Positions 36,594 to 40,055 of a DNA stretch of 64,000 nucleotides are shown piece after piece. The notes under the pieces are model-generated. The model saw only the letters and a program-made list of their open reading frames with translations, ran no database searches and was not told the DNA's origin. The DNA comes from Hansschlegelia quercus (GTDB lineage Bacteria; Pseudomonadota; Alphaproteobacteria; Rhizobiales; Methylopilaceae): assembly GCF_004310425.1 (NCBI RefSeq), contig NZ_SIUB01000001.1, positions 496,001 through 560,000 on the forward strand, read 5' to 3'. Numbering within the stretch: position 1 is the first letter of the stretch; each line of letters opens with the position of its first letter. The position numbers and the translations under genes are program-made.

Positions 36594-36914
36594 ATGGCCT
36601 GGGCGTGTCTAGTGCTGGCGGGGATGATCGAGGTCATCTTCTCCTATGCGTTGAAGCAGTCCTACGGCTTCACGCGGCCCGTCGCTTCGGTCGCGGCGAT
36701 CGTCTCCGTCTCGGCGAGCCTTGGCCTGCTGGCCTACGCCATGAGAACCCTGCCATTGGGGCTCGCTTATCTCGTCTGGACGGGCGTCGGCGGCCTCGGC
36801 GCGCTTGCGGTCGGCGCGATCGTTCTTGGCGAAGCGATGACGCCGTTGAAGGTCGTCAGCGCCGGCTTCGTGGTCGTCGGCCTGTGCGGGTTGCGCTTCG
36901 CCTCGGCCGGCTGA
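36594..36914 (+). CDS. Small multidrug resistance (SMR) family transporter
   Basis: A 106-residue protein with four membrane helices, the size and topology of SMR proteins. The conserved membrane Glu is in 'LAGMIEVIFSYALKQSYGF', the helix-3 region reads LGLAYLVWTGVGGLGALAVG, and a final 'GFVVVGLCGLRFAS' helix follows. The family includes EmrE-like drug/proton antiporters and Gdx guanidinium exporters; which type this is cannot be decided safely by eye. It stands alone on the plus strand. Confidence 0.85.
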   Translation: MAWACLVLAGMIEVIFSYALKQSYGFTRPVASVAAIVSVSASLGLLAYAMRTLPLGLAYLVWTGVGGLGALAVGAIVLGEAMTPLKVVSAGFVVVGLCGLRFASAG

Positions 36915-37114: not shown

Positions 37115-37153
37115 ACAAAAGAAAACGGCGCCTCCCGCGAGAGACGCCGTTTC
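37115..37153 (-). terminator. Rho-independent terminator of the tRNA-like RNA
   Basis: On the minus strand AAACGGCGTCTC pairs with GAGGCGCCGTTT around a 6-nt loop, with one G-U pair, followed by the T-rich tract TTTTCTTTTGT. It starts 6 nt after the CCA end of the tRNA-like gene at 37159. It would also catch read-through from gyrA. Confidence 0.85.
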
Positions 37154-37158
37154 GAATT

Positions 37159-37233
37159 TGGAGGCCCAGCCTGGAGTCGAACCAGGATAGGGATGCGTTC
37201 CCACATCCCGGGTAGCCGTTCCCCCACCGGGCC
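37159..37233 (-). tRNA. tRNA-like RNA of undetermined identity (75 nt, non-canonical anticodon arm)
   Basis: On the minus strand the acceptor GGCCCGG pairs with CTGGGCC (one G-U), followed by discriminator T and encoded CCA. The T-arm CCTGG-TTCGACT-CCAGG is perfect, and a D-loop AACGGCTA holds the conserved GG. The central arm has a 6-bp stem GGGATG/CATCCC with an 8-nt loop TGGGAACG lacking U33, so no codon can be assigned. Acceptor, discriminator T and T-loop resemble tRNA-Cys, but the GCA anticodon is absent. An intrinsic terminator follows 6 nt later. It lies 89 bp downstream of the gyrA stop on the same strand. A degenerate tRNA or a dedicated tRNA-like RNA are both possible. Confidence 0.6.
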
Positions 37234-37322
37234 GTTCGCGAAGTCTGCCTGTTCCGGCAGGCCGCGCACAACGCTTAAAGAGCCTTAAGCCTAAGGCTTG
37301 CTTAAAGCCCGACGTGCGGCCG

Positions 37323-40055
<2,733 letters not shown>

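Follow-up and report, generated by a model that had tools for sequence, protein, structure and literature searches.

The window, a stretch of 64,000 nt from the Hansschlegelia quercus genome, carries on its minus strand a gene for a 75-nt tRNA-Cys-like and apparently non-decoding RNA with an encoded CCA end (37159–37233; GGCCCGGTGGGGGAACGGCTACCCGGGATGTGGGAACGCATCCCTATCCTGGTTCGACTCCAGGCTGGGCCTCCA). The gyrA gene (37323–40055, minus strand) lies 89 nt upstream, and an intrinsic terminator, consisting of a 14-bp hairpin and a T-rich tail (37117–37153, minus strand), begins 6 nt past the CCA. A small ORF on the plus strand (36594–36914), which resembles an SMR-type multidrug exporter by translation, is located between the RNA gene and coaD. 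ARAGORN, independently of the original prediction, called exactly the same span as a 'tRNA-???' with a four-letter 'ggaa' loop.

The RNA has a 7/5 acceptor/T domain and a short variable loop (4 nt). Its features, all on the minus strand, include an acceptor stem with 5′ strand GGCCCGG (37227–37233) and 3′ strand CUGGGCC (37163–37169), the discriminator U73 and CCA end (37159–37162), a D-arm with a 3-bp stem and G18G19 (37210–37224), and the T-arm CCUGG-UUCGACU-CCAGG (37170–37186); the D-stem is paired in every row of the alignments A1 and A3, and the acceptor stem and T-arm are supported by alignment with relatives. The acceptor stem, encoded CCA, U73, D-loop GG, and perfect T-arm that had been read from the letters alone are thus borne out. 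The sequence and alignments also place all core residues (U8, A14, G18G19, and T54–C56) in the RNA, and an L-shape is therefore plausible in the window's genus. In its acceptor stem, CCA, T-arm, and core residues, the RNA matches an elongator tRNA; judging from covariation, it lacks the 5-bp anticodon stem, 7-nt loop, U33, and readable triplet of one. At 37159–37233, no Rfam family reached its gathering score: the general tRNA model (RF00005) gave no match at its gathering threshold or even at E ≤ 10, and the tRNA-Sec model (RF01852) gave 18.8 bits against a gathering score of 47, the long variable arm being absent. RF00005 also gave no match above its gathering threshold in eight loci of relatives, and ARAGORN called no tmRNA at 37159–37233, where the terminator begins only 6 nt past the CCA. 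The covariance models thus returned no normal cloverleaf, in keeping with the earlier view that no normal anticodon can be read.

In a DNA search, the 75-nt sequence had a single match in each of the 13 genomes sampled from the window's genus (the Methylopila/Hansschlegelia group, window genome included). The same 5′ half occurs in named records of Methylopila, Hansschlegelia, and Chenggangzhangella and also in a genome labeled Chelatococcus sambhunathii and in 'Rhizobiaceae bacterium CPCC 101076'; phage and plasmid collections gave no match to the window RNA. Covariance model R2 detected the RNA in the window genome with E = 2.9e-20, a value to which the window copy contributed as part of the training set. 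Chance sequence, already discounted in the original prediction, does not account for these matches. Within 1.5-kb flanks, 12 of the 13 loci have gyrA upstream and 11 have coaD downstream, so that a search for the RNA downstream of gyrA in related genomes succeeded within the genus. The RNA body contains 21 variable columns, mainly in the central arm, and exists in 11 variants in the genus, compared to 2 variants of canonical tRNA-Cys that differ at one site.

The central arm

In place of an anticodon arm, the RNA has a 7-bp stem (GGAUGUG/CGCAUCC) capped by a GGAA tetraloop (37191–37208, minus strand). The tetraloop (37198–37201, minus strand) is of the GNRA type and is invariant in the genus; it is GGCA in G014, a genome outside the genus but in the same family, and UGCA in many copies from other families. 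In alignment A1, stems were paired in 99.6% of cells, and the central stem showed two-sided changes with pairing kept at 5 of 6 tested pairs; in the cross-family alignment A3, two-sided changes were found at 7/7 pairs. The compensatory changes that had been proposed as a check on this stem are therefore present. The first reading of the arm as a 6-bp stem with an 8-nt loop gives way to a 7-bp stem with GGAA, which is favored by covariation and by RNAalifold, where a G–C closing pair was added; the companion claim, that the arm has no readable anticodon, holds. Because the central arm presents no triplet, ordinary decoding by the RNA is excluded in the window's genus as far as this predicted structure is concerned.

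tRNA-Cys ancestry and relatives in other families

Models R1 and R2 both found canonical tRNA-Cys(GCA) as the next best match in the window genome, and R1 also recovered ordinary tRNA-Cys(GCA) genes. These matches, and the fact that relatives still carry GCA, support descent of the RNA from tRNA-Cys, of which it is a paralogue. They also vindicate the earlier remark that it looks like tRNA-Cys but lacks GCA: the discriminator is U73, and GCA is seen in the shrunken loop of relatives. Shared with canonical tRNA-Cys(GCA) are U73, GGCC at positions 1–4, a short variable loop, and similar D- and T-arms, whereas acceptor positions 5–7 are CGG rather than ACG, and the 7-bp stem and GGAA tetraloop stand where the canonical molecule has a 5-bp stem and a 7-nt loop with U33 and GCA. 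Canonical tRNA-Cys was present in 34/34 genomes searched. Exactly one strong CysRS match was found in each of 26 genomes searched, the other matches being weak synthetase cross-hits; a dedicated second CysRS was therefore rejected for these 26 genomes.

Judging by sequence matches, the RNA occurs in five or more families of the order, including that of the window (coded here as f1, f35, f29, f14, and f6; f1 contains both the window's genus and G014). A pattern fixed on the acceptor ends recovered aberrant copies in G014 and in families f35, f29, and f14. Elsewhere in the class, the same strict pattern returned only one ordinary tRNA-Cys (G558), an absence that is weak evidence. Within f35, the pattern matched in 48/120 genomes and 22/47 genera. 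With model R2, copies overlooked by the pattern came to light at the same site in G799, G792, and G807, as did a degenerate copy in G809 and further copies in G017 (f1), G179 (f29), and G141 (f6). Extra partial Cys-like matches in f1 proved to be tRNA-Phe. Among 68 distinct relatives, the acceptor stem and T-stem were 100% paired and the acceptor stem showed two-sided compensatory changes at 6 of 7 pairs, in an alignment that was fitted to the model and is thus biased towards structure, as A3 is not. U73 and CCA were each present in 67/68, the window copy among them; the f35 pattern search left position 73 free. The D-loop GG dinucleotide was absent in roughly half of the 68 sequences, and the tRNA elbow is therefore likely to be altered in those relatives.

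In most relatives outside the genus, the central stem is 5–6 bp long and the loop, for example GUGCAA or AUGCAU, retains a U33-like U and GCA while its size and context drift; if the flanking letters pair, these arms become 7-bp stems capped by UGCA. Other loops, lacking GCA, occur in G783, G824, and G870, and GCA is absent throughout the window's genus. The series UGCA to GGCA (in G014) to GGAA (in the window's genus) can be read as a path in which each change is explicable by a single substitution. The GCA and U33-like U of most non-genus relatives would suit a tRNA-Cys that still decodes, for example in frameshifting or at UGY codons, through an unusual 6-nt or 8-nt loop. We regard such decoding as quite improbable, given the loops without GCA in the window's genus, G783, G824, and G870, the missing D-loop GG in roughly half of distinct sequences, and the canonical tRNA-Cys in every genome tested.

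In f35, the usual gene order is carA-...-methyltransferase-RNA-carB-greA, and in G014 and G017 the RNA gene stands after carB-greA. This common neighborhood supports common descent of the f1 and f35 copies, with a move to gyrA in the window's genus. Its place 89 nt past the gyrA stop codon and ahead of a terminator would also fit a processing or 3′-end punctuation element of the gyrA mRNA, but we consider this highly improbable because the gyrA site is specific to the genus and relatives with the same upstream element (see below) lie at carB, lepA, and elsewhere; a function tied to gyrA was rejected on the same grounds. The class I methyltransferase next to the RNA gene in f35 was rejected as a partner: it occurs in most f35 genomes without a pattern match and is absent from the window's genus and from every f1 genome tested. 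As the sole candidate neighbor tested as a partner enzyme, it does not co-occur with the RNA.

Several individual copies are unusual. The copy at the usual site in G809 (L218:1309-1382, minus strand) is decayed, with a broken T-loop and central loop and an acceptor stem that is still fully pairable. G854 (L179) and G881 (L167/L168) each contain two unlike copies with differing central loops, those of G854 being about 1 kb apart, and a copy in G807 (L225:254-327) ends in CTCTT, so that CCA is not encoded. Genomes such as G185 (family f41, genus g91) have a further tRNA-Cys whose 7-nt GCA loop is normal but whose body resembles that of the aberrant family (L233:4155-4228, minus strand; GGAATGGCTAC, with a CCTGG T-arm). 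This gene sits among genes for AMP-binding enzymes; it may represent a 'before' stage or may belong to a biosynthetic cluster.

Decay of the kind seen in G809 implies that the RNA is dispensable in places. Together with presence that is patchy between genera and drift faster than that of canonical tRNA-Cys (11 variants in the genus against 2), this one clearly degenerate copy might suggest that the whole group consists of functionless, decaying tRNA-Cys duplicates, perhaps left by integrative elements. Such a pseudogene origin is improbable, however: the stems covary, acceptor pairing is 100%, the GGAA loop is invariant, and paired sites show a non-neutral pattern; moreover, 13/13 genomes have one copy each, the upstream element and terminator are kept, and the neighbors are housekeeping genes. 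The original prediction had argued from the terminator that the unit was unlikely to be debris, and the conservation, covarying stems, and retained flanking signals in the window's genus agree. Of the three options it offered, degenerate debris falls away for that genus, and a tRNA used outside translation and a tRNA-like regulator both stand.

The upstream element and terminator

The terminator had been placed 6 nt beyond the RNA, and its hairpin was confirmed in the window and recurs: a strong hairpin (−22 to −36 kcal/mol) followed the RNA in 11/11 distinct genus orthologues folded. On the other side of the gene, the element TTAGGCTTAA (37285–37294, minus strand) lies at −61, and a putative −35 sequence of the gene's own promoter, TTGTGC (37266–37271, minus strand), stands between this element and the gene; orthologues have TTGnn at a similar position. 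The family consensus of the element is TTARSNNTA / TTAAnnTTAA. TTARSNNTA (best form TTAASSTTAAC) was found upstream of 26 of the 31 first-found copies, mostly at exactly −58 or −61; among other tRNA genes it preceded 1 in 58, and it occurred in 0.8% of random windows of 54 nt. Because the element had been defined on these 31 copies, we tested it on 41 later-fetched loci and found it at −62 to −57 in 15, compared to 0.06% of random positions; these held-out loci are mutually related, and a binomial p-value is thus not to be taken literally. The element travels with the gene across loci, whether at gyrA, carB, lepA, or elsewhere.

The exact sequence TTAASSTTAAC had only 7 strand-wise matches per genome in three genomes of the Methylopila group; the matches fall at 4–5 places, among them the RNA gene, genes for flagellin, and one for an outer-membrane protein. 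In the Methylopila group, TTAAnnTTAAC likewise precedes genes for flagellins and outer-membrane proteins, and in f35 it occurs near outer-membrane protein and other genes (L146, L150, L143, and L133, flagellin; L147, L155, L154, and L134/L135, outer-membrane protein; L144/L145, a PAS-like gene). The motif was not assigned as a CtrA box: its spacing here is TTAA-N2-TTAA, as opposed to TTAA-N7-TTAAC for CtrA (PMC7200025).

An element held at a near-fixed distance and common to flagellin and outer-membrane protein genes in Methylopila would suit a regulator. The RNA could be an uncharged tRNA mimic or decoy, its level set by the TTAAnnTTAA element, with CysRS, EF-Tu, RNase P, or an enzyme that targets tRNAs as its binding partner, or else a source of tRNA fragments. 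The loss of GCA in the window's genus fits such a role, and Bacillus cereus tRNA-Other provides a precedent (PMC3399842). Nevertheless, a decoy for anything other than CysRS would have no need of the CCA, U73, and exact acceptor pairing kept nearly everywhere or of the GCA kept in most copies, and because the D-loops and central loops vary, the RNA offers few constant surfaces for binding. Taken by itself, a regulatory decoy is a rather unlikely account; it is nonetheless the main rival to a cysteine donor and nearly as likely.

Possible roles outside the ribosome

The RNA retains the acceptor stem, T-arm, U73, and CCA, and its anticodon arm has become a stable hairpin unable to present an anticodon. 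Because relatives in at least five families keep the acceptor half and the promoter element, the RNA probably has a so far undescribed job outside protein synthesis, and we hold with good confidence that it is a functional non-decoding tRNA-Cys paralogue acting outside elongation. As read from the sequences, selection is on the acceptor/T half, U73, and CCA, plus GCA in most lineages. These are the features seen by CysRS and by acceptor-reading enzymes, and a cysteine donor outside the ribosome is thus the simplest model. Transcription of the RNA would start at its own promoter, RNase P would trim the transcript, and the single CysRS would charge it, mainly via U73 and also via GCA where it is kept. 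An enzyme that recognizes no more than the acceptor/T half would then use the Cys-RNA, so that cysteine is delivered outside the ribosome and decoding is left to canonical tRNA-Cys. U73 alone is able to confer cysteine identity on minihelices (PMC9976931). Charging in the window's genus may be weak or absent, however, because GCA, a major CysRS determinant, has been lost there. We favor, at a little under even chances, a dedicated non-decoding tRNA-Cys paralogue whose Cys-RNA supplies cysteine outside the ribosome; for the donor role as such, our expectation is slightly lower still.

Three known systems resemble the RNA in part. The selC* tRNA-Cys (Mukai et al., 2017; reviewed in PMC7609411) is likewise a structurally unusual tRNA-Cys with U73, but it has a tRNA-Sec-like 8/4 body, a long variable arm, an intact anticodon, and sometimes an accompanying CysRS* and SelB*. 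The window RNA shows neither that body nor the long arm, it has no anticodon, and no second CysRS goes with it. B. cereus tRNA-Other is a tRNA-like RNA reported to be inactive in translation and thought to act outside it, as the missing anticodon alone suggests for the window RNA; tRNA-Other, however, retains its anticodon, flanks a genomic island, and has been reported from some Bacilli (PMC3399842), whereas the window RNA is found in five or more families of one order and has housekeeping neighbors (gyrA/coaD in the genus, carA/carB/greA in the case of f35) instead of a place at the edge of a genomic island. The 3-thiaglutamate pathway uses Cys-tRNA as a non-ribosomal cysteine donor in Cys-tRNA-dependent peptide ligation (PMC9016710). 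It is a functional analogy only, and its abstract mentions no dedicated tRNA. None of selC*, tRNA-Other, and aminoacyl-tRNA-dependent biosynthesis matches in body, distribution, and anticodon loss together. We found no earlier description of such an RNA in the literature searched, outside of which most subscription journals fall. The family is easily overlooked in annotation, as most copies are 'tRNA-???' in ARAGORN and are missed by Rfam.

To our knowledge, non-translational tRNAs are few, and the known ones mostly keep their anticodons. Our broadest reading, offered tentatively, is of a new family of tRNA-Cys paralogues in one order that has its own regulator, has shed its anticodon in visible steps from UGCA to GGCA to GGAA, and would serve as a cysteine carrier or charge sensor in a non-ribosomal pathway. 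With its intermediate stages, covarying stems, and separate promoter element, such a family would illustrate the route by which a tRNA leaves translation. It would also point to a new use of cysteinyl-RNA, or to a novel tRNA-like regulator, in an order whose bacteria are associated with soil and plants.
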